DNA of 64,000 nt, taken from Phorcus lineatus. Taxonomy: Eukaryota; Mollusca; Gastropoda; Trochida; Trochidae. The stretch is from contig OV121088.1 of assembly GCA_921293015.1 (NCBI GenBank), positions 4,916,382-4,980,381 of the forward strand. Direction: 5' to 3'. A program made the translations under genes and the position numbers. Shown here piece after piece: positions 1,617 through 57,913 of this stretch (positions are counted from its first letter, which is position 1; every line of letters begins with the position of its first letter). Below the pieces are notes generated by a model that saw only the letters and a program-made list of their open reading frames with translations, was not told the origin of the DNA and ran no database searches.

Positions 1617-4600
1617 TATAGTATAACAATGAACTTATTTTTAAAATCAATTTAGCATCCATTAATGTAGATAACAGTTTCGTAAATAAGATGCTATCCT
1701 CAGGAAAGCAATAAGAAATGAAAATCGTTGCTCTTTGTGCACAAATATACTACGTTTGGTAAATGAAAACATTTTGCATATGTTGATCTTGGAAGGGAAA
1801 AATAAATACTTTAAAAAGAAGGTTTATTAAATCAGATGAAACGATTGGAGTCTTTGTGAAGTTAACAATTTTGAAACATTGTTAGATATATTTTATTTGT
1901 AAAACGCATTGAATTCATATATCTAAGACGAAACGAGAGGAAGCGTTATTATATGAACATTTATGTGCATGTATTCATAAATCATTTGTTAAGAATTTGA
2001 GGCTATTGAAAGTGACACTTTAATTTTACCTTTACTTCTTGAATGCATCACTTTGGGGATGTCATGTCATGAACTATCAATTTGATAATTGCATGTAATT
2101 AATATTTTGAACGCCAGTGTTGTTATACTTTGAATACTATTATTAATATAAGAGTTTGTTCGAATATTACTTTACTGAACTAGCTGAGTGCATCCTATAT
2201 CAAGCACCGTAAGTAGCGGTCCTGTAACAATAATAGTTTTAGCATATGTACATGCTTTTTTAAATTCGACAATATGCTTCATATTTTCACGACCCTGTCC
2301 GCCATTGAATGGATACTTACACATGTTAAATTATAATTAGAGTTGAATCACTTGGTCAATATTAATAATCATTACGTCCGTTGATGTTACGTGCTATCTC
2401 TTAAATCGGGATATCATTTCCATAAATTCTTAATTATTATTCAGATAGTTGGGATACCGACACACTGTATCTACTCAACATGGTGTGAAGATATGCAGTA
2501 TTTGTATTTACAAATAAAATGCATGTAAATCAACATATGTGAAAATATGAGGTACTTTACGTGTTTATGTGTTAGTACTTGCAAAGGAGTGAACAATATG
2601 CCGCCATCAAGTCACTGTAGTGGTAGATTGAGAAAGACAATCTAACATGAAGATTGACAAATGCTTATAAGTGATATTGGTTATGTATATACTATATATT
2701 TTATAATATGTAAGTGTGTGTCTGTGTGTATTATTTGCTGTTCTTTAAGTACTGTTGTTTAGGTTTAAGTAAGAGAAATTGTCTCTCATAACATTTTGAC
2801 CAATATAAAAGGTGCGATATCTAATGCAGTTTACTTGTCAATTTTATATGGTGAGACAATGAAAACAATTTCGCTCTCTCTATCTTTGAGTATGTTTATG
2901 AACTGAAAACGGACAAACCGCAAAACATAAACTCAATAGTGAAATACCACATGTTATATTCCTGTAAAGTATCAATATGCAGCACCTGCATCTACAAATG
3001 TATCTTCATGAAACTATAAAACAATCAAGTCTTTATGGCACAAGGCTAGACAGTTTCCGTTCAAAGGCTGTCGCGAAAAGACCGGTGCTTTGAGGTAATT
3101 GGTCTCGCTACAGCGAGCAGCGTCTGTGGTCAGTGGCCCAGGCGTTGAGCCGTGAAGCTGTCTCGGCGTTAATGAGTTAATGATAATGGATTATGGTGTG
3201 AACGCCTATACAAAGCCAACATATTAAATTATTTAACAAGAGCTTACCATGGTTCAAAGATAGAGTGTAAACAGTGTAAAAAAACCCAACCATTTCTGAG
3301 CCTAATATGATGTTGCTGTAGATTACACATGTAAAATGAAGAATGAACAACAACTCTTTAATCAATCTAATCAATAATGCACATGACAACAGATTGTTAC
3401 TTTTCAATTAATTTATTTCAATCTATAGAAGAATGTGTTTCGTTAATATCATAGATTTGACCTTCAATCTATAATCAACCCAAAAAGGATACAATATAAA
3501 AAACGTGAAACTCATGATTCCAAGCAATGTTGTAACAGAACCAATTGCACTCTTCATAAGAAATATATGATAACTTTAACGGAAATGACTCTGAAAATGA
3601 CATTAGGTTTTCCTCGTATCTTACTTTATACATGTTACATGTTTATTGATATGATCTCTAAAAATTAACAAGATTTGATAAGATCGTTTAACAAGTTAAC
3701 TGAATGATTGAAAACAGTGTTAAAGTGATCGAGTGTGGATTCAATTTCCTTCAAAACTATTTCAGCTATTTAACTATGATCTAATAGAGAATGGGTAGAA
3801 TAGGGAAAAAGGGATCGAAAGGAGGAAGGAAAAGACTGAAAGAATTATTAATTATTTTTGTATATATAAAGGCTGGTATATATGATTTGAAAACTCATAT
3901 GCATCCTGAACCTAACGACATCAACATCGACTTAAAGAACCCAAAACAATCAAGAAATAGTCCTTTCATCACAAGAAGGGAAAACCTTTTTAAGACAAAC
4001 ATGATTTTCAATGTGTTGATTGGATTTCGTCAATCATAATACAGTTCTGTAATTGTTGTACTTTACAGACGACCAAATTGGAAGAATTTGCAAAATTGTA
4101 TAATATATGTGAACTATCAGCCTCAATCATTTTATAGGCAATATATTTTTTGTTTCAGACAAATGGCCTACTTGAACCTTCAAATTCTTTTATACTGACG
4201 GTTGATCTGGCACAGATAACGAAAAGTTTTAGAGACAATGTCTAACTTCTACATCATTCATCAATTAACTTCTATAATTCAGACCTACAAGACAAATAGC
4301 ATTGTTGGAATATTAGAAACATAAACCATGGCATTGACATTATTCATTTGACAGTTTGGAAGGAATAATCTAAGCCTACACGATGCAAGTACACTTGACC
4401 ATTTGAAGGATGATGAAGATGTCTGGAAACAAAAAAGTTATAAAGATTTAGCAAAACATACAATCTATCTTTGCTATGTTTAACCATTGACCATGGGCTT
4501 CCTTCTTGGTTGCCGTAACTGTCGTTTTAAGCTTTAAAGGTAGGACAACTGACAAACCGAACAAGAACAAACAGCTCTGCATCAACAATTTCTGACCAAA

Positions 4601-8219: not shown

Positions 8220-9680
8220 TGTGAACAGGAATGGCAGCTTCGTATGTTCAATGTTGCCAATGGGTAGGACCCCATGTGTAACATTGACAGCATTTCCCAT
8301 GCCTTACGGTTGCGTTTTGGCGACAGTACATAAGACGAAAACCAAAGAATTGTTCTCCCCATACAAACATGTCATTTGAGAAGGAAGGGCATCACTCGAA
8401 CACAACAATCAGTGCATGTGTTTTGGCTAGATGTCAATGCTTCTTTTGGGTATAAAGTTGATGCCAGAATCATTTCGCCTGTGTTCGTGTTTTCAATCAG
8501 TATGGTGAGGAGACGGTTATCCGTTGACGATCGTAGGAGAGTGATTGGCATGCTTCAGACTGGAATTTCTTTGAGAGAAGTAGCTAGGCGTATGCAAAGA
8601 TGCCCACCCGTCATTCACCGACTATGGTTACGTTTTCAGGCAAAAGGAAGAGTCCAGGACCGACCACGCTCAGGCAGACCAAGATCAACATCAAGAGCTG
8701 ATGATCGCTATGTTGTTGTGACAGCTTTGCGACAGAGATTCACCCATGCAAGTGCTCTTCGTCAAACATTCGACAAGCCACACACGTAAATGTTAGCAAC
8801 CAGACCATACGTAACCTTCTTCGTGCTGCTGGAATCCGTTGCAGACGTCCTGCTGTACGACCCATTCTCCTCCCACGTCACAGAGACGCTCGTCGAACTT
8901 GATATACTGCTCATTTGCGCTGGAATCGCCAGGTCTGGACACAGGTTTTGTTTACTGATGAGTCACGCTTCAGTTTGATGTTCCATGACGGCCGGGTACG
9001 TGTGTTCAGAAGACAGGGTGAACGCTTCTCTGATGCAGCAGTAGCTGAACACGATAGGTATGGTGGAGGATCTGTGATGGTATGGGGTGGTTTCAGCTTG
9101 AATCACAGAACTCCCCTATACCACGTGCAAGACAGTTTAACAGGACTTCGCTATAGAGATAAGATCCTTGCACCTCTTGTCCCTCCAGCTCTTAACACCA
9201 TCGGTCCTGGCAGTATTCTTCAAGACAACAATGCGAGACCTCACCGAGCGCGAGTTGTTACTGAGTTTCTGCAACGGTGGGTTGTTCAGAGGATGGAGTG
9301 GCCGGCATTTTCACCTGATCTTGCCCCTATTGAACACGTCTGGGACATATTGGGAAGACGCGTACGGGAAAATAATCCTCCCCCTGTAAACCTTCAACAG
9401 CTGCTCGGATTTCTGAAACAGGAGTGGAACGCAATACCCTAAGGTACTCTTCGAACGCTGGTGAGATCCATGAGTTCTCGCTGAGTCGAGTGTCTCAGGA
9501 ACAGAGGTGGCCACACTCATTAATGACTGACTTTGGTGGCATGCAACTTTTGAAACACACCCACTCATTTCTGCCTAGTCTACAGGATATGTACAACATC
9601 GTTTTTTGATTATTGTTACTGAAAAAACATTAGCCAAGGCTTTGTCAGATTTGGATTTGGGTAGTTTGATGTAGCAATTG
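8220..9680 (+). mobile_element. Decayed Tc1-like DNA transposon
   Basis: This GC-richer island surrounds the broken transposase at 8502-9523. About 280 bp of leader and 150 bp of trailer fit the short UTRs of Tc1-type elements. I could not identify matching terminal inverted repeats, so the limits are approximate and the ends may be eroded. Confidence 0.6.
8502..9523 (+). pseudogene. Tc1-family transposase, broken
   Basis: A Tc1/mariner-superfamily transposase would bind the terminal repeats and cut and paste the element in the nucleus. The natural start is the ATG at 8502 (MVRRRLSVDDRRR). A helix-turn-helix DNA-binding region follows, then the GRPR-type motif RSGRPRSTS. The catalytic part carries FTDESRF (first Asp), the glycine-rich box YGGGSVMVWGG, QDNNARPHRA, and SPDLAPIEHVWD (Glu). 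The gene is dead: the frame changes near 8760, there is an in-frame TGA at 8900-8902, a TAA at 9440-9442 and further stops before the end at about 9523. In related elements the second catalytic Asp normally sits directly before NARPH; here that position is Asn. Length and domain order otherwise match a protein of about 340 residues. Confidence 0.88.
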
Positions 9681-24614: not shown

Positions 24615-24755
24615 ATCTGACAAGACGCATGTAAGAGAGCTCTCGCTCATGTGCAAATATTTCAAGTAAATACAACAACTGCAAAGTCCAGCACACGCTC
24701 AACCTGTTCCTAACGTCACAGTCAGTCATTCTTCTACAAAGACAAACACATTAAG

Positions 24756-25700
24756 ATGTCTAGCCGCGACAGAAAACAGGGTAAAGGTGGAAAACCAACA
24801 ACAGCTCGAAGCTCGAGCGAGAAGAGAAAACCATCAGGCTCTCCCACGGACTCCGTACCACCTAAGTCACATAAGCCGCTTATACAGTCGACAGTGTTCA
24901 ACTTCACAAGTACACCGAAGCAGCCATCTCAACAGCAAGATCAACAGTTGCAACAGGTAGATCAGCCATCTACAGAGCCAGGGAGTCCCAGTCAGTCGGC
25001 GGAGATTTCTTATCCCTCTACCCTGTTCAACTTTATTGACGAAGTGTCTGTAGATGTACTGACTACGAAACTGGCATCTGCGCTTATGCTTCCACAGCTT
25101 CAACAGAAGTTTCACTTGGCGTTTTTCGAAGTGGCAAAGGAGGTAATTTCGAATCTAATCGAAAGGGAGATTGAACCAATGCAGAAGGAGATTTCAACGC
25201 TAAGGAAAGAACTACAGGAGACGAGGGAAGAACTGCACATGAGGACGGACGAGCTGGAACAGTACAGCAGACGAAATTCATTGAGGATCAGCGGTGTTTC
25301 AGAAACAGAGGACGAGAACATCGAAAAAGTCACCCTGGATGTGCTGAAGAAGGTTAACTCCAAGATATCTCTATCCGATCTCGACAGGTGCCACCGGGTA
25401 GGCAGGCGATCACCAGGACGCAAGAGGCAGATAATTGTAAAGTTTGTGAGTTACTTTGACAGGAACAAGGTGTACACCAACAGGAGGAAACTACGCGACA
25501 GTATGGAACATATATTCATAAACGAGGACCTCACACAATATCGGAGCAAGTTGTTCAACATGGCCAGAGACTTGAAACGAGCCCGGTGGATAGAGAACAC
25601 TTGGACAAAGGACGGTAGGATCTTTGTTTTGGAACAGCCAGAAGGAGCGACGAAAGTTGTGTTTTCAAAGCAGGATCTAAATGCTTATGTGCGCGCATAG
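24756..25700 (+). CDS. ORF1: LINE ORF1 protein (coiled-coil RNA-binding protein)
   Basis: This 314-residue protein would coat the LINE RNA and help form the ribonucleoprotein used for target-primed reverse transcription. Residues 1-95 are low-complexity, rich in Ser, Pro, Gln and Lys and probably disordered (QPSQQQDQQLQQ). Residues about 125-172 form a heptad-like charged coiled coil (MQKEISTLRKELQETREEL). Residues about 173-235 resemble the RRM-type domain of L1-like ORF1 proteins, with EQYSRRNSLRISGV and DRCHRVGRRSPGRKRQIIVK. The C-terminal part (236-295) contains IFINEDLTQYRSKLF and WTKDGRIFVLEQ, as in the small C-terminal domain. The start is the first ATG after a 150-bp leader. ORF2 follows 422 bp downstream in a different frame. 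There are no stops or frameshifts. Confidence 0.88.
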   Translation: MSSRDRKQGKGGKPTTARSSSEKRKPSGSPTDSVPPKSHKPLIQSTVFNFTSTPKQPSQQQDQQLQQVDQPSTEPGSPSQSAEISYPSTLFNFIDEVSVDVLTTKLASALMLPQLQQKFHLAFFEVAKEVISNLIEREIEPMQKEISTLRKELQETREELHMRTDELEQYSRRNSLRISGVSETEDENIEKVTLDVLKKVNSKISLSDLDRCHRVGRRSPGRKRQIIVKFVSYFDRNKVYTNRRKLRDSMEHIFINEDLTQYRSKLFNMARDLKRARWIENTWTKDGRIFVLEQPEGATKVVFSKQDLNAYVRA

Positions 25701-26122
25701 TGTGTTGTGACCTGACTGGAATCGTTATTTGAACTGTAAGTTATATTTTAAATTGTATATATATTGAAATGTGTAACGGTGTCATTCTACAGTCAGAATT
25801 GTAAATACTCGATCATGTTTTAAGTTGTTTTCAGTTGTTGTGTATGTAATGCACACCTCTTATTAGATCCACATGAGTCTAACTTCCGCCATGCTAACGT
25901 CTCTTTCTGTACCATATTTCGTTATCATTTATTTTGTATGTACTTTTCACCCCATTAGTCTATCTCTGTTTCTATCACAAAGTATTGAATATGTTAGAGC
26001 TTGGTCTGTACTTCCTAACAAAGTCTGTATTTTACAAATTGATGTGCTTGTGTATTACATTGAACTATCCCGATTTTCACTCCACGCTTTGCATATTTTC
26101 CAATCCAGATACTTATTAGATA
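25701..26122 (+). other. Inter-ORF spacer of the LINE
   Basis: These 422 bp between ORF1 stop and ORF2 start are rich in T and contain short chance frames. ORF2 must be reached by reinitiation, internal entry or a separate transcript. Nothing in the spacer decides which. Confidence 0.6.
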
Positions 26123-29100
26123 ATGGGTAGTCATATAGTTCAACATCGCGTGGCGATCGGGACATTTCATTGTAAGACATGTTGTAAGTGTATGCGCCTA
26201 CTTAGATCATGGCAATTGTTTACGTCTTGTTACTTTCAACGCTTTGGTACGCCTTTGTTTGAATTACGAAATATGTGTTCCTTACTGTCTGTATCATGTA
26301 AGACAAGCATTGTATTCACAGTTCTCTGCGTGCTACAAAGCCAATTCCGTAATACTAGTGTGATATTTCTACTACTATTGTTGCTACAGCTGTCTGGTGA
26401 TATTGAAAGTAATCCAGGTCCAAACGAACCACATTACAAAAACTTGTCAATATTTCATTTGAATACTAGAAGCATAAGGCATAAATTAGAGTATCTTAGC
26501 GAGTATCTTTCGGAAAATGAAATTGTTGGTTTTACAGAAACTCATTTAGATAGTAATGTTACAAGCGATTCATTAAAATGGTCTGGTTACCATGAACCAT
26601 TACGCAAAGACAGAAGTTCATTTGGAGGCGGAGTTATGCTTTATATAAAAAATTCATTAGCATATAAACGAATGTACGATTTCGAAAATATAATTGACGA
26701 AACAATTTGGGTACAGTTATATTTGCCTGTCAAACCACTTATAATTTGTTTGGCATACAGACCTGAGTATAATTCTTTGGATTTTTGGAATAGACTTGAT
26801 ACATATCTTGAAAATGCCATAGACATCACAAGTAAAGTTATTATCATTGGTGATTTAAATGCAGATCTTCTTTCAAGTAGAGGCAATAAACTCAGAGATA
26901 TAATGATTAATAAAAATTTGAATAATGTTATTACAGAACCAACAAGAGTTACACGTTACTCTAGTACTTTGATTGATCCAGTTATTGTCAGTGAAGATAT
27001 AAAGACTGTTGATTGTGGAGTTACTGATTTCGATAGTGCTATTAGCGACCACAAAGGTACTTACATCACCTTAACTAAAACAGTAAATACCAAAATGGCT
27101 TATACCAGAGAAGTGTTGTGTTACAAACAAGGCGACTATACTTCATTGAATGATTCTATCACAGAAACAAATTGGAATGAATTGTTACACAATTGCAAAG
27201 ATGTTAACGAAGCTTGTGACAAATTTTATAGAAAATTTAATTCATTTCTGAAATCTTTTATCCCTACAAAGACTGTTACTATTCGACCAAATGATAAACC
27301 GTGGTTTGATTCCAAATTAAGAAAAGAGTGTAGGAAGAGAGACAGATTGCGAAAAAAGGCAAATAGAACAAAATCTTTATCAGATATTACAAAATTCAAA
27401 AAACAACGACAAAAAGTTAATAATATGAAATATCATGCCAAAGAAAACTTTTATGCAAATATTGATAATTTTCTTCTTGACTCGTATATTGAAAACAAGT
27501 GTTCATATTGGAAACTGCTGCGATATTTAGTGAAGCAATCTGGCTCTAGTACCTGTATACCTCCTCTCAAATGTAAGGATGATAACAATAGTCCAACGTG
27601 CTTTTCAGATTTTGAAAAGGCTGAGAGATTAAATGAATATTTCCAATCAATATCAACTTTGGATAATAATAATGTTTGTTTACCTGCATTTAATAAGCGA
27701 ACGAGCGCTATTTTTGATTCTCTTATTATTACAAAAGGTGAAATCGAAGATGTCATTAAATGTTTACATGTGAAAAAAGCATCTGGTCCAGACAGAATAA
27801 GCCATCAGTTGTTACAGAGTATTGTATACTCAATAAGTGACGTGTTGTGTTTATTGTTCAATATGTCTTTGCAAACTTGTGTGTATCCCCTCGAATGGAA
27901 AGTTGCCAATGTTATGCCTCTTTTCAAGAAAGGGGATCCTACTCTGGCGTCTAACTATAGACCAATTTCACTTATCAGTTGTGTTGGTAAAGTTTTTGAA
28001 AGAGTTGTTTTTAAGCACCTGTTTAATTATTTCCATACAAACATGCTTTTATATAAATATCAATCTGGCTTCCAGCCTGGACATTCAACTGTACATCAGC
28101 TAATTGAAATATATCATCAGATTTGTGAATCTTTAGATAGAAAGGAAAATTACTGTATGGTGTTTTGTGATGTGTCGAAAGCATTTGATAGAGTGTGGCA
28201 TAGAGGTTTATTACTAAAATTAGAGAAATATGGTATAACAGGTCAGCTATTAGGGTGGATAAAAAGTTATATAAGTAATCGCAGTCAAAGCGTGTTTGTC
28301 AATGGGTCAAGTTCTAAGCCGCGAACACTCCAAGCTGGTGTCCCACAAGGGTCAGTACTAGGCCCATTCTTGTTTATTGTGTACATAAATGATATAGCTG
28401 ATGAGCTAGATTGTCTTACGAGGCTTTTTGCTGATGATTCTTCGCTTGGTTATTCATCAGTTGTCAATAGTGATATAGAAATTAAATTAAATGCTAATTT
28501 GTGCAAGCTTAACATGTGGGGTAAAAATTGGTTAATCAAATATAACCCTGATAAGACTGAAGCTGTGCTTTTCTCGCTTCAAAATACTAATGATAAGTTA
28601 CATCTTTATTTTGATGGAGTTGAAATAAGAATGGTTGAGATACATAAACATCTTGGTGTAATACTATCACAAAATGGGAAATGGGCGTACCATATCGAAA
28701 ATATCGTTACAAAGGCTGCAAAGATGGTAAACTCTCTTCGAAGTCTAAAATATGTGTTAGGTAGAAATACTCTCAATAGGATTTATATAATGTTTATTAG
28801 ACCACATCTTGAATACGCATGCGAAGTCTGGGATGGTTGTTCACAGGAATTAACCAATAAACTAGAGCAAGTTCAATTACAAGCAGCTAGGATTGTAACA
28901 GGATTGCCAAGATACGCATCACGGCAATTTCTTTACTTTGAAACTGGTTGGGAGCCTTTGCTAGAACGTCGTAGAAAAAGAAAATTAAATTTAATGTATA
29001 AAATCCAAAATAAAATGTCACCACAATACCTCGCAGAACTTCTTCCTCAAAATGTTGGTTCAAAAAGTAATTACAATTTACGTAACGCAAAAGATATTTC

Positions 29101-29596
29101 CATTCCATATTCAAGGCTTAAACATTCAGATGAATCGTTCTATCCATCAGCAATACGTTCATGGAACAATTTACCAGAGAATGTCCGTAAGTCAGAAAGC
29201 ATTTCAATTTTTAAAACATGTGTTACCAATAAGTATGTGTCTGCCCCAAAATATTTCTCATGCGGTAAAAGAAAATTTAATATTTTGCATACAAAATTGC
29301 GTTATGCTGTCAGTTCATTGAATTATGATTTATACAAATTTGGAATGAAGCCTGATACCAATTGTACTTGTGGATATTATGTTGAGAACTCCTATCATTT
29401 TTTCTTTGAATGTTCTCTGTACAAAAATGAGAGAAAAAACCTTATGTCATCAGTAAAGCGCATACTGCATACATCATGTATTTCAGTTACACTTCAGCTT
29501 TTGTTAGAGGGAAGTACAGACCTGTCATTTTGTCAAAATGTTAATATATTTGAGTTTGTTCAATTGTATATTCATGCTACCAAACGATTTGTGTAA
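26123..29596 (+). CDS. ORF2: LINE ORF2 polyprotein: 2A-like leader, APE endonuclease, reverse transcriptase
   Basis: This 1157-residue protein nicks target DNA and copies the LINE RNA into it. A Cys-rich hydrophobic leader (1-91) ends in the 2A-like motif GDIESNPGP (92-100), where ribosomes are expected to skip between Gly99 and Pro100. The endonuclease spans about 106-320, with FHLNTRSI, ETHLD (Glu139), GDLNAD (243-248) and SDH (His310). The reverse transcriptase spans about 550-800: KASGPDRIS, NYRPISLISCVGKVFER, DVSKAFDRVWH (683-693), AGVPQGSVLGP (738-748) and the catalytic FADD (769-772). A conserved C-terminal region (EYACEVWDG, LERRRKRKLNLMYKIQ, WNNLPENVRKS) ends with a C-x-C-x8-H-x4-C knuckle (1081-1097). 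No RNase H is seen. The frame is intact; the first ATG is used, and Met51 is an alternative. All catalytic residues I can check are present. Confidence 0.93.
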   Translation: MGSHIVQHRVAIGTFHCKTCCKCMRLLRSWQLFTSCYFQRFGTPLFELRNMCSLLSVSCKTSIVFTVLCVLQSQFRNTSVIFLLLLLLQLSGDIESNPGPNEPHYKNLSIFHLNTRSIRHKLEYLSEYLSENEIVGFTETHLDSNVTSDSLKWSGYHEPLRKDRSSFGGGVMLYIKNSLAYKRMYDFENIIDETIWVQLYLPVKPLIICLAYRPEYNSLDFWNRLDTYLENAIDITSKVIIIGDLNADLLSSRGNKLRDIMINKNLNNVITEPTRVTRYSSTLIDPVIVSEDIKTVDCGVTDFDSAISDHKGTYITLTKTVNTKMAYTREVLCYKQGDYTSLNDSITETNWNELLHNCKDVNEACDKFYRKFNSFLKSFIPTKTVTIRPNDKPWFDSKLRKECRKRDRLRKKANRTKSLSDITKFKKQRQKVNNMKYHAKENFYANIDNFLLDSYIENKCSYWKLLRYLVKQSGSSTCIPPLKCKDDNNSPTCFSDFEKAERLNEYFQSISTLDNNNVCLPAFNKRTSAIFDSLIITKGEIEDVIKCLHVKKASGPDRISHQLLQSIVYSISDVLCLLFNMSLQTCVYPLEWKVANVMPLFKKGDPTLASNYRPISLISCVGKVFERVVFKHLFNYFHTNMLLYKYQSGFQPGHSTVHQLIEIYHQICESLDRKENYCMVFCDVSKAFDRVWHRGLLLKLEKYGITGQLLGWIKSYISNRSQSVFVNGSSSKPRTLQAGVPQGSVLGPFLFIVYINDIADELDCLTRLFADDSSLGYSSVVNSDIEIKLNANLCKLNMWGKNWLIKYNPDKTEAVLFSLQNTNDKLHLYFDGVEIRMVEIHKHLGVILSQNGKWAYHIENIVTKAAKMVNSLRSLKYVLGRNTLNRIYIMFIRPHLEYACEVWDGCSQELTNKLEQVQLQAARIVTGLPRYASRQFLYFETGWEPLLERRRKRKLNLMYKIQNKMSPQYLAELLPQNVGSKSNYNLRNAKDISIPYSRLKHSDESFYPSAIRSWNNLPENVRKSESISIFKTCVTNKYVSAPKYFSCGKRKFNILHTKLRYAVSSLNYDLYKFGMKPDTNCTCGYYVENSYHFFFECSLYKNERKNLMSSVKRILHTSCISVTLQLLLEGSTDLSFCQNVNIFEFVQLYIHATKRFV
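26396..26422 (+). other. 2A-like ribosome-skipping motif in ORF2
   Basis: Residues 92-100 of ORF2 read GDIESNPGP, a full match to the D-(V/I)-E-x-N-P-G-P consensus, preceded by the hydrophobic stretch IFLLLLLLQLS. 2A peptides make the ribosome skip the Gly-Pro bond, releasing the upstream peptide and continuing translation. Similar 2A sequences at the N-terminus of ORF2 are known in several animal APE-type LINEs. Here it would split a 99-residue leader from the enzyme. Confidence 0.88.
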
Positions 29597-29780
29597 CAAA
29601 TTAGTGTTTCATTTTTTCCTTTCTTCTTTGCTATTCTTCTTCCTACAACCTTTTCTTGTTCAGTATCTGTCATCATTTTATGATGGAAATGTATGATATT
29701 GTAAATACCAAGGAGAGGGTATCCTAAGTTGGAGAACTTGTTCCCAATCCGTTTCTTCATGAATAAAATATGTTTAAATC
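29597..29780 (+). other. LINE 3' UTR
   Basis: 184 bp between the ORF2 stop and the right target-site duplication, with an AATAAA at about 29762. This end would be the substrate recognised by the LINE's own reverse transcriptase. It shares no obvious tail with the SINEs in the window. Confidence 0.6.
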
Positions 29781-29790
29781 ATATATAACA
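29781..29790. repeat. Target-site duplication, right copy (ATATATAACA)
   Basis: Identical to 24543-24552. Confidence 0.8.
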
Positions 29791-30260
29791 CACATTTTCC
29801 AGATTCGATTTGGACTGTTTGATCGTATAGCTCTGTATCTAAGAATGTCATGTCTTAAGAGCAGCTGTTTCTCTTGTATACAAGATTCATATTTTCTTAT
29901 TCGTTCATTTACAATGGAGGACCAAGCAGATTTAGACGGCAACGTGGATTTAAAAACATAATCATGCAATAAATGTGACATGCCATATTTATGTACAGTT
30001 CTAATAATATTATACACAGGAGACATAGAACATTTCGTGGTATTGTAAGTGTCATACAACTGTAGAATACAGCCAATAAATACCTGTTTGAAATAAAAAT
30101 ATTTTCCTGATCTACACAATTTTCCAACGAAGAGAAGAACTTGCTTGTCGATATATCCCTGTACAGAGATGAGATTAAGAGTATCTATACAGGCAGGCCT
30201 TGGTGTATGTTTAGGTAGACCCTGAACTCTTCTGCTAAAATATCGTTGGATAATTTGATT
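29791..30260 (-). pseudogene. 5' part of the older LINE ORF2, interrupted by the young LINE
   Basis: On the minus strand the frame reads RRVQGLPKHTPRPACIDTLN, then YIDKQVLLFVGKLCRS, FKQVFIGCILQL, and PSKSAWSSIVNERIRKYE. This is the region that follows the reverse transcriptase in CR1/L2-type ORF2 proteins. It ends at the target-site duplication in codons for Val-Ile-Tyr. The same three codons open the other half at 24551-24543 in the same phase. The 5' side appears truncated near 30260-30280, where a short AAATCAAATC-type repeat begins, so the reverse transcriptase domain itself is missing. Confidence 0.8.
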
Positions 30261-31850
30261 TGATTTGAATTTTGATTTGATCGGAGGTGAACGAGATAAC
30301 AACATACTTTAACCCTGAATTATTGCGGGTGAACGTCCAACAGCTGGTCAAGTTTACGATATCCTTCATTAACATCTTTAAATGAACATCTCCTTCATTA
30401 ACATCATTAAATGAACATCTTTCCTCATTTTAAAATTGCTTGAGGATGACTAAAGTCCAAATCAGTAAATTTTATCTTGAAATTGAACCTCGATCGACGT
30501 TTCAAAAGTATGGTTAGTATTTATGGGTTTTTTTTCTATCAAAACGTTATGGCTGTTTGGTCATAGCTTTCACGTTTGAGTTCATTGTCGATAATGTAGC
30601 AAGAGAAATACTTCATCAACAACTATTTAGAAATTTCTTTAAAGTTTACACACATGCCCTTTCTTAAACACACATCTTCAAATTGATTTTTCCTAACTTG
30701 AATCTGACTACAAGGTCTCCTATTATCATATTGTCTTAAAGGGCTCAAAGCATGAGATAATTTGTATCATAAATGTTGAACATGTCATATGTAATGGAAA
30801 TCTAACAGCATTACAGTTTTAGGGTACTCTATTCAGCATTGTTTCTTATTTCGTTAAACATTTCATCCTTTGATATGTATAGTGTGTCATGATTATACTA
30901 AGTCCCATGGTAATAGAAAAAGATATATGAAATTAGGGTCAGTCCAAAAACAAAGGAAACAAAATCTAGTTACAGTTTTCCTGAAAACCAAGTCACTATC
31001 ACAAGTTAAAAAACACAATTCAAAAACATTCTGACAGTAACCAAATAGTACATTACTGACAGAAAATTCAGCTGTCAGTAAGCGTGATTCTGTTAGAGTT
31101 CATTTAGATCAGATATTTCATTTAAAATGCTTGTTATTACCAAATCTTAGGCTTTGACATAGTTTGATCAAATTTTGTGGCGTGATGATGGTTGTCTTCT
31201 TCTTGCTGAACCAACATGATTATGGTCGTTGGTTCTCTTTGAACGTGAAGTTTTTTAATCAAAATGTTGGTTATGGTAATGGCTACCTGATGCCCTAGCT
31301 AAATTATAGTTGTAATTGAGAAAACAGAGAAGATAAAATAATGAAACCTTTTTTGTCATTATTAAAACCGTTTTTTTGTACACGATTTATTTGTACCGTA
31401 TATTATCATCATTCACTTAATAGATAAGTTAACCATTATAATAACTCCACTGACAAAGTCACTTGGCTGAGGATATAAAATTCTTTCACTTAAATTGCTT
31501 AGCATTCTGTCAGGCAGATAATTCGGTTATGCTATTGAGGCGATGCTTAAATCTCAGATGTAAATCATTTTGTCAAGGAAATTAGTTTATCAAAGACAAA
31601 TATGGCTTAGCCAAATTGCAACATTGCAACGATTATGATAATATTGTGATATATTTTGTCGTATTGTCTCTATTGATGCACTAACGTTCCTATGAATATA
31701 AATTGTAATGACAATAGATTACAGAGGCAGTCAACATCAATCATTAAAGTTTCGTATAAAAATTCAAGGAAATAATTTTACTTCCTTTACACCCCCAAAC
31801 ACTCCAACACTGCTTTAAATAATGACAAGTATGTGTGTGTACAAAGGACA
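30261..31850. other. AT-rich non-coding stretch
   Basis: It contains the short tandem at 30362-30419. No gene or transposon is recognised in the remainder. Confidence 0.45.
30362..30419 (+). repeat. Short tandem duplication, 2 x 29 bp
   Basis: TCCTTCATTAACATC followed by TTTAAATGAACATC occurs twice in a row with one difference. Confidence 0.9.
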
Positions 31851-56455: not shown

Positions 56456-57060
56456 ATGGAAAGTTCTAAAACTAAGCATCGTGCGGTTTTCAAGTATCTC
56501 ACGAAGGAAGGGGTAAATGCGACCGAAATACATTAACTTATGACAAAGGTGTATGGGAAACAAGCCCCTTAATATTCTAATGTTGCAAATTGATCAGTTT
56601 AAGTGGGGTCGCAACTCTTTGGACCAAGGAAGGCCTGTTGAAGAAATTACCAATTATATGGTTCCACGGACCACCATATTTGCACCATATTTCATGAGCA
56701 CTTGCACATGTCAAAGGTGTCTGCAAGATGGGTGCCACAAAACCTTCATAGACAAGATCGACACCAGAGAGTTTAATCGCGTCGGATTCCAGATGAACTT
56801 CCACAATGATGATCCCGGTAACTTTGAGCCCGTCTGATTGCAGGGGAAGAAATGTGGATTCATCATTTGGATCTTTACAACAAGCAAGAGTCCATGCAAT
56901 GGAAGCATAATCACTCTCCTGCACAAAGAAGTTCAGAACCGGGCCTTCTGCTAGCAAGCTCATGGCAACCATTTCCCTTGGATTCCAGGGGCGTGATAAT
57001 TATACACTATGAACCACCTAAACTTACAACAAGAAGCAATATTTACTGTTTATTTTCAAA
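56456..57060 (+). pseudogene. Mariner transposase fossil
   Basis: Reading from the ATG at 56456 gives MESSKTKHRAVFKYLTKEGV, then with frame changes FKWGRNSLD, RPVEEIT, HEHLHMSKVSARWVP, DDPGNFE, WIHHLDLYNKQESMQWKH and LDSRGVIIIHYEPPK. These match, in order, the N-terminal helix-turn-helix, the linker and the first half of the catalytic domain of mariner transposases (DD34D type). Stops occur throughout, there are several frameshifts, and about 40 codons are missing between EEIT and HEHLHMSK. The first catalytic Asp (normally TGDE) has become Glu in AGEE. The copy stops before the second catalytic Asp. A 131-codon open frame on the opposite strand is only its shadow. Confidence 0.85.
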
Positions 57061-57109: not shown

Positions 57110-57113
57110 AATG
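57110..57113. repeat. Target-site duplication of the solo LTR, left (AATG)
   Basis: AATG also follows the LTR at 57795-57798. Confidence 0.55.
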
Positions 57114-57230
57114 TGTTATGAGTGTGTGATTGTTCATAGGTTTAACATTGTATAAGATTGATATATTGTTTAGTGGGCCACACTTGCACTTGTTTTGATA
57201 GTTTTAGCTGTCAGTGTCTAGAATCATCTA

Positions 57231-57243
57231 TTCTAGAATGTTC
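57231..57243 (+). promoter_or_regulatory. Heat-shock element, TTCtaGAAtgTTC
   Basis: Three perfect alternating pentamer cores with exact 5-bp phasing, the binding pattern of trimeric HSF. It lies 87 bp upstream of the first TATA box in the LTR. Confidence 0.65.
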
Positions 57244-57295
57244 TATCTATTTCGTGATTGCTTGAGTTGGACACTTCTGATTGGAGTTTGTCGTA

Positions 57296-57318
57296 GAATT
57301 TTAAAGAACATTCGGGAA
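57296..57318 (+). promoter_or_regulatory. Heat-shock element array ending GAAcaTTCggGAA
   Basis: GAA at 57296, an imperfect TTA at 57301, then GAA at 57306, TTC at 57311 and GAA at 57316 keep a strict 5-bp phase. The perfect trimer ends 11 bp before the TATA box, an arrangement like that of hsp70 promoters. Confidence 0.7.
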
Positions 57319-57329
57319 GGTATCTAACC

Positions 57330-57339
57330 TATATAAAGG
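57330..57339 (+). promoter_or_regulatory. TATA box in the LTR
   Basis: TATATAAAGG directly downstream of the heat-shock array. A second TATAAAAG follows the palindrome at 57433. Confidence 0.6.
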
Positions 57340-57340
57340 C

Positions 57341-57432
57341 CATCTTCCGCACGCATCGGGCGAGATATGCATTTACAAGAAATTCATGAATTTCTTGTAA
57401 ATGCATATCTCGCCCGTTGCGTCCGGAAGATG
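57341..57432. repeat. 92-bp palindrome with perfect 58-bp core
   Basis: 57358-57415 is a perfect palindrome with no loop, centred between 57386 and 57387 (AATTCA/TGAATT). The symmetry extends outward to 57341 and 57432 with only two mismatched pairs. It separates the two TATA boxes of the LTR and would place a strong hairpin at the start of any transcript begun at the first TATA box. Confidence 0.95.
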
Positions 57433-57913
57433 TATAAAAGCCGGCATTAGAACTCTTACTCATCTTGCTTCTTACAATCAATTTTGCGATCATCTGCCGT
57501 GCCACTGTTTTTGGATACCTTTACAAGCCGGATTCATCTATCTCCAATCACGACCCACTGACTGTTTTCTACATTCATCAATTGTGTGATTCATAAGGAC
57601 TGGTTAATATATTTAGTTAGCTAATTAGTGTGACTCATTTGATATTGTATTATACCTTGTATTAGCTTGATATTGTAACCATAAACACTTTGTATATTAT
57701 GTGATTGATAAAATTGTAATTAATATACAATTGTCGTGTTATATGTTGCTGGTTTGACTGGTGACGTTTTCCTATTCCAAATTCATTCGTAACAAATGTA
57801 CAATCATACTCCATCAATACTTTCAAAAATGGAAGGAAGTTTAGTATTCTGTTTAAAACTTGACCTCAGTAATCAAACATGATTGCCGAAAGTGTACTGA
57901 ACATTGTGACGGC

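Follow-up and report, generated by a model that had tools for sequence, protein, structure and literature searches.

A putative heat-shock-type LTR promoter in a Gmr1-like gypsy family of Phorcus lineatus, and a solo copy whose TATA box was split by an AcademH-like miniature

Heat-shock elements in mobile DNA and the Phorcus LTR

The closest described systems are mobile families that carry heat-shock elements (HSEs), the sites to which heat-shock factor (HSF) binds. In the Brassicaceae, HSFA2 binding and heat induction have been demonstrated for ONSEN/COPIA78 (PMC3907296, PMC5059998). The family that we describe from the gastropod Phorcus lineatus resembles ONSEN/COPIA78 in being an LTR retrotransposon whose LTR holds a cluster of HSF sites, in the strength of that array (at least four adjacent units) and in an uneven distribution, in which some lineages have the feature and related ones have a weaker form or none. 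ONSEN is a plant element of the copia type, whereas the Phorcus family is an animal gypsy family (Gmr1-like), known here from sequence alone. The Helitrons of Caenorhabditis are likewise a mobile family that spreads HSEs through an animal genome (PMC6927752), but they are DNA transposons with reported HSF-1 binding, whereas the HSEs described here belong to an LTR promoter and keep a fixed distance to its TATA box. The Cryptococcus elements TCN3 and TCN12 share with the Phorcus family the LTR retrotransposon type and putative HSEs in the LTR (PMC12810828); they are fungal and their mobilisation at 37 °C has been measured, whereas the case for the Phorcus family is read from its DNA.

Two further systems bear on this locus. 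Gmr1-like Ty3/gypsy elements have a SCAN domain in gag, as the Phorcus family does, and the available sections of the report on them make no mention of HSEs in their LTRs (PMC4131045). Searches of the literature on HSE-bearing LTRs and of that on Gmr1/SCAN, two topics that were searched separately, also found no Gmr1-like LTR described as having HSEs. AcademH elements generate target duplications of 9-10 bp (PMC10045372), and DEAD and Helicase_C domains are among their features (PMC10799480). The principle of a heat-responsive mobile element is already known from ONSEN and the other cases, and the sequence of this animal gypsy family suggests that it follows the same logic. If heat induction is real, the family would parallel ONSEN in an animal, within another retrotransposon superfamily.

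We analyzed a 64,000-nt stretch of the P. lineatus genome (the window; contig OV121088.1, forward strand, positions 4,916,382 to 4,980,381), which contains one LTR of this family with the following features, numbered from the first letter of the window.

57110-57113 (+): left copy of the 4-bp LTR target-site duplication (AATG)
57114-57794 (+): solo LTR of the Gmr1-like Ty3/gypsy family, about 580 bp plus a 92-bp insertion and its 9-bp duplication
57231-57243 (+): HSE1, a perfect three-unit HSE, TTCTAGAATGTTC (TTCnnGAAnnTTC)
57296-57318 (+): HSE2 array, GAATTTTAAAGAACATTCGGGAA, five phased units with 14/15 unit bases, the second unit imperfect (TTA)
57306-57318: HSE2 core, a perfect three-unit HSE, GAACATTCGGGAA
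57330-57337 (+): first TATA box (TATATAAA), 11 bp after HSE2
57795-57798 (+): right copy of the 4-bp LTR target-site duplication (AATG)

The LTR begins with TGTTA and ends with TAACA, end bases common to most other copies that were fetched, and AATG stands on either side; 4-bp duplications also surround other copies (e.g. L002, L005, L015, L019 and L021). When six internal stretches of the family were compared with the window, no match adjoined the LTR except the LTR edge itself. The ends, the duplication and the lack of adjoining internal sequence uphold the sequence-only reading, made from the letters of the window, in its claim of a solo LTR. That reading had also claimed two perfect three-unit HSEs, the second extended to five phased units with one imperfect and ending 11 bp before a TATA box, and both claims agree with what we found, TATATAAAGG standing at 57330-57339, 11 bp past HSE2. 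The window LTR has two sequence marks of an HSF-type promoter, at least three GAA/TTC units alternating at 5-bp phase and an array just upstream of a TATA box, here at 11 bp.

We quantified how often such an arrangement arises from base composition. Among 4000 dinucleotide shuffles of the 681-bp LTR, at least one perfect three-unit HSE appeared in 28, two appeared in one and the five-unit array in none; shuffles of the whole window yielded the five-unit array in 1/60. Real overlapping stretches of the same 681-bp length, taken from the rest of the window (n = 6196), contained at least one three-unit HSE in 134 cases and two in no case. Across the whole window, the three-unit motif was seen four times vs 0.97 expected (2/100 shuffles reached four), and the motif at 57306 is the only one of the four with TATA[AT]A at most 30 bp downstream.

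The promoter architecture across the LTR family

We assign the LTR to a Gmr1-like Ty3/gypsy family because its longer elements appear to encode a SCAN-type gag, an integrase before the reverse transcriptase (RT), and RT with RNase H before the 3' LTR. SCAN domains in gag scored above the Pfam cut-off at L068:2-760 (E 2.7e-9) and L076:635-1255 (E 2.6e-10). Within L076, an rve match at 2347-2751 (E 9.7e-6, under the Pfam cut-off) is followed by RT/RNase H at 3458-4385, and an element on C7 has RT and RNase H directly ahead of its 3' LTR. Encoding the integrase before the reverse transcriptase is the hallmark of Gmr1, a likeness that the family shares. Matches to RVT_1, RT_RNaseH and RT_RNaseH_2 stand alongside the SCAN gag in internal pieces, a combination that we take to mark the gypsy type and not copia. 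The elements are not of the Ty1/copia type to which ONSEN/COPIA78 belongs; the earlier comparison with ONSEN holds for an HSE-bearing LTR and fails for the type of retrotransposon. Identity within two presumed LTR pairs is 94.9% and 97.8%, which points to fairly recent activity.

The genome (957.8 Mb in 74 contigs) was searched with the LTR as query, the best 40 of 1062 first-look candidates were scored and 30 loci were taken, 29 of them besides the window. The strongest matches fall in the half of the LTR that is free of HSEs, so that the sample of copies was not selected for HSEs. The 29 copies were aligned with the window, and L011-L013 were dropped as near-identical to L010, leaving 26 copies. 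Some copies have a purine tract before them or a sequence like a primer-binding site after them, which indicates that they belong to longer elements as LTRs. Of the 26 non-duplicate copies, 22 have an intact HSE2 core and 23 keep its outer GAA, while the full window-type array of five units (outer GAA, TTA and core) is present in 17/26. HSE1 is intact in 17 copies and broken in nine, and HSE1 and the HSE2 core are jointly intact in 13/26. A TATA box follows HSE2 at a spacing of 11 in 22 copies (TATA[AT]A in 20) and at a spacing of 15 in two; none was found after HSE2 in the other two of the 26 aligned copies. The dropped copies and L010 (L010-L013, G000:C11:1813587-1924468) are nearly identical to one another; all four are copies of a single LTR whose 5' part is foreign, lie about 36-38 kb apart and form a segmental array that multiplies HSE2.

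Genome-wide counts extend this picture. The five-unit motif GAAnnTTAnnGAAnnTTCnnGAA occurs 310 times vs 10 for the reversed pattern, and the HSE2 core with the family flank occurs 248 times vs 0 in the control. A perfect three-unit HSE followed by 11 bp and TATA occurs 516 times vs 138 for the reversed pattern, and the off-by-one control with 12 bp gave 111 vs 121 reversed. The excess at exactly 11 bp, on the order of 380 sites that are not assigned singly, is what the LTR family would supply. Repeat copies inflate such motif counts, which speak for abundance and common descent and not for function. The architecture of HSE, 11-bp gap and TATA box is the norm of the family, in hundreds of copies. 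The sequence-only reading had named a family without the phased units as the outcome that would contradict it; instead, both the units and their 11-bp spacing are family-wide.

The same abundance would follow if the HSEs had stood in the family's ancestor by chance and been copied along by common descent without driving transcription. We consider this unlikely, though it deserves weighing. A young family has had little time to lose its HSEs, and conservation of the HSE sites is not significantly above that of other LTR sites (0.940 for the 21 perfect-unit bases vs 0.927 for 101 other sites of the same stretch; permutation p = 0.23). Yet two perfect HSEs (1/4000 shuffles), a five-unit array (0/4000) and a set TATA distance are improbable by chance, and two observations on relatives also speak against it.

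These relatives were chosen by their reverse transcriptase, eight close elements (87-96% RT identity) being hand-picked from 150 scored RT matches; the stretches fetched for L096 and L099 do not include the LTR, leaving six. The five-unit array stands at 14/15 in 6/6 of these relatives, and HSE1 is perfect in 4/6, L097 having one changed base. In three of the relatives (L094, L095 and L100), all seven perfect units are unchanged despite 10-12% substitutions elsewhere in that part of the LTR, which speaks against a chance ancestor; fixed differences between these three and the main group number 0/21 at HSE sites vs 16/169 at other sites, which is not significant (Fisher p = 0.14). The second observation against it is that L101 (G000:C1:74227962-74228662) reads GAACTTTCAGGAACATTATAGAA, with the imperfect unit at position four rather than two; the five-unit score is preserved although other units make it up, and binding-site turnover may be the cause. 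The same copy has lost the phase of HSE1 and has TATCTA where the TATA box is expected.

We found no perfect three-unit HSE in ten stretches of more distant sister families (L102-L111, 42-64% RT identity), five of which (L103-L105, L107 and L108, those at 57-64% RT identity) have a recognisable purine tract and LTR start. With the sister stretches free of such HSEs, the promoter looks like a gain in this gypsy lineage, and the comparisons hint at its maintenance, short of proof.

A different question is which factor the array serves. The second unit of HSE2 is TTA in 21/26 copies and a perfect TTC in 0/26, so that another motif may overlap there, and the GAA/TTC array could on this account be a site for another factor, or several overlapping sites, instead of a site for HSF. 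We judge that improbable, as five alternating units at an exact 5-bp phase are the signature of HSF, and a perfect three-unit array also stands near the TATA box at one of seven hsp70 genes of the host. At this gene, one of the seven single-exon hsp70 genes and located on C12, the perfect three-unit HSE is separated from TATA (TATAAATAC) by 12 bp. The other six have partial HSEs, and no perfect three-unit HSE within 1.2 kb upstream, which means that a perfect HSE is not the rule at hsp70 genes of this host. The perfect HSE at hsp70 genes was dropped as a yardstick, being seen at 1/7.

A palindromic miniature in the TATA box

The window copy differs from the family norm directly after its TATA box, where a palindrome was overlooked in the sequence-only reading; the palindrome and its flanks are laid out as follows.

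57332-57340 (+): left 9-bp target-site duplication of the palindrome, TATAAAGGC
57341-57432 (no strand): palindromic miniature transposon, 92 bp, two 46-nt arms that are 96% complementary, no spacer, AcademH-like ends
57433-57441 (+): right copy of the same duplication, TATAAAAGC, identical with the second TATA box; 8/9 bases equal the left copy
57442-57480 (+): original core promoter continued, from alignment with insertion-free copies, with the likely original transcription start, placed by its distance from the TATA box

None of the 29 other LTR copies that were read has the palindrome (L020 is deleted there), and they run straight from the left flank into the sequence past the right duplication; among the matches listed for the LTR query, the palindrome part was matched by the window alone. 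The insertion split the TATA box and duplicated it, and it put about 100 bp between the HSEs and the region of the original start; the second TATA box now lies 114 bp from HSE2. The start region of 57360-57460 that had been predicted from the letters is, in this copy, mostly insertion sequence.

A nearly perfect, spacerless palindrome could also be a local inverted duplication made by replication error, and not a transposon. We give this hardly any credence, because the same sequence occurs at many other sites (best 40 scored of 75 candidates, E down to 7.7e-36 outside the window), because 8 or 9 of the 9 duplication bases are found around 35 of 38 copies, and because two stretches of about 10 kb on C2 have identical ends. 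The family is dispersed, the 38-base end of the palindrome alone having 55 exact genome matches. The 38 measured copies include the window and omit L044/L045, where a single stretch holds two copies, L065 and L086 as longer elements, and L064, L092 and L093, whose stretches contain one end; the 9-bp flanking duplication is exact in 29/38. Palindrome loci L031-L063 and L084-L091 have mostly 9-bp duplications, and L084 (G000:C5:11937704-11938029) is a 126-bp copy with a second, nested inverted arm. Covariation of the arms between copies was dropped from the analysis since the copies vary mainly in their centre.

The two C2 stretches, 9,899 and 10,019 bp long and about 160 kb apart, are bounded by the same exact ends as the palindrome. 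The first (C2:59674835-59684733; L074, G000:C2:59674800-59684799) is flanked by the 9-bp duplication aacaaggac. It encodes a helicase with DEAD (E 3.1e-18) and Helicase_C (E 9.4e-19) domains, as well as two pieces of DUF6589 (E 5.8e-11 and 2.5e-7). The second (G000:C2:59844337-59854355), of which the ends alone were read, has an 8-bp duplication. We take the palindrome to be an AcademH-derived miniature because of its 9-bp duplications and the ends that it shares with an element encoding DEAD and Helicase_C, both of which are likenesses to AcademH (PMC10045372, PMC10799480). It differs from AcademH in that only terminal-repeat sequence is present, apparently a head-to-head junction of the terminal repeats of an AcademH-like element, in copies of 72-126 bp with a variable centre. 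A first guess from the 9-bp duplications, that the palindrome is a MULE miniature, was dropped in view of the DEAD/Helicase_C domains of the same-ended element and the 9-10 bp duplications of AcademH. DUF6589 would be the transposase of the long element; our literature search found no mention of it. The L074 element also contains a zf-AD-like piece, below the cut-off. As RNA, the whole palindrome is predicted to form a hairpin of -73.5 kcal/mol (z = -14.4), and the single-stranded DNA fold is predicted at -48.5 kcal/mol.

Proposed working and surroundings of the LTR

We consider it probable, at roughly 65%, that this Gmr1-like gypsy family has a heat-shock-type LTR promoter and that the window holds a solo copy, later split by an AcademH-like miniature. 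The promoter reads, in order, an upstream three-unit HSE, the five-unit HSE, an 11-bp gap and the TATA box. Under heat or protein stress, trimers of heat-shock factor would bind the HSEs and start synthesis of the full-length element RNA, helping the family to spread. The window copy lost its internal part, leaving a solo LTR, and the 92-bp palindrome later landed in the TATA box, doubling it. HSE2 now faces a first TATA box whose transcript would begin inside the hairpin, while the second TATA box keeps its position before the original start region. With a split TATA box and a distance of 114 bp, an altered or reduced heat response is expected, and the heat promoter of the window copy is probably weakened or changed and less likely to be a normal one. 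The earlier description of a heat-shock-type LTR promoter is sustained for the phased units and 11-bp spacing of the family, and qualified for this copy, whose TATA box was split by the later insertion.

The architecture suggests that heat could activate the retrotransposon family. If true, the family couples heat stress to retrotransposition and spreads HSF sites through an animal genome. It would be directly testable, since the copies number in the hundreds, some having and some lacking each HSE, and the promoter is physically split in at least one of them. A broader scenario is speculative, and we hold it to be rather doubtful as a whole: an animal Gmr1-like gypsy lineage would have gained a heat-shock LTR promoter that was kept by selection, tying its mobility to heat; its LTRs would have seeded several hundred cassettes of HSE, 11 bp and TATA, most of those in the genome, which could be wired to host genes; and other transposons, such as the AcademH-like miniature, would disarm or retune single cassettes through the TATA box.

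No host gene was recognised near the LTR among the eight open frames of at least 120 aa that were listed, six of which were scanned, a survey that genes with short exons would escape. The scan found no domain match in the frames at 24714-25697, 29760-30308 and 56580-56999. The last of these lies in an open frame of 140 aa that directly precedes the LTR (56577-56999, minus strand) and has no Pfam match, and its best solved-structure match is no better than E 0.33. The other three of the six scanned frames encode transposon domains, HTH at 8334-8786, DDE_3 at 8903-9439, and reverse transcriptase with endonuclease at 26120-29593. The stretch at 24714-29596 is a LINE, with an upstream open frame that has no Pfam match and a 1158-aa open frame for endonuclease and reverse transcriptase, and 8334-9442 is the remnant of a DDE_3-type transposon that includes an HTH part and is spread over two open frames.
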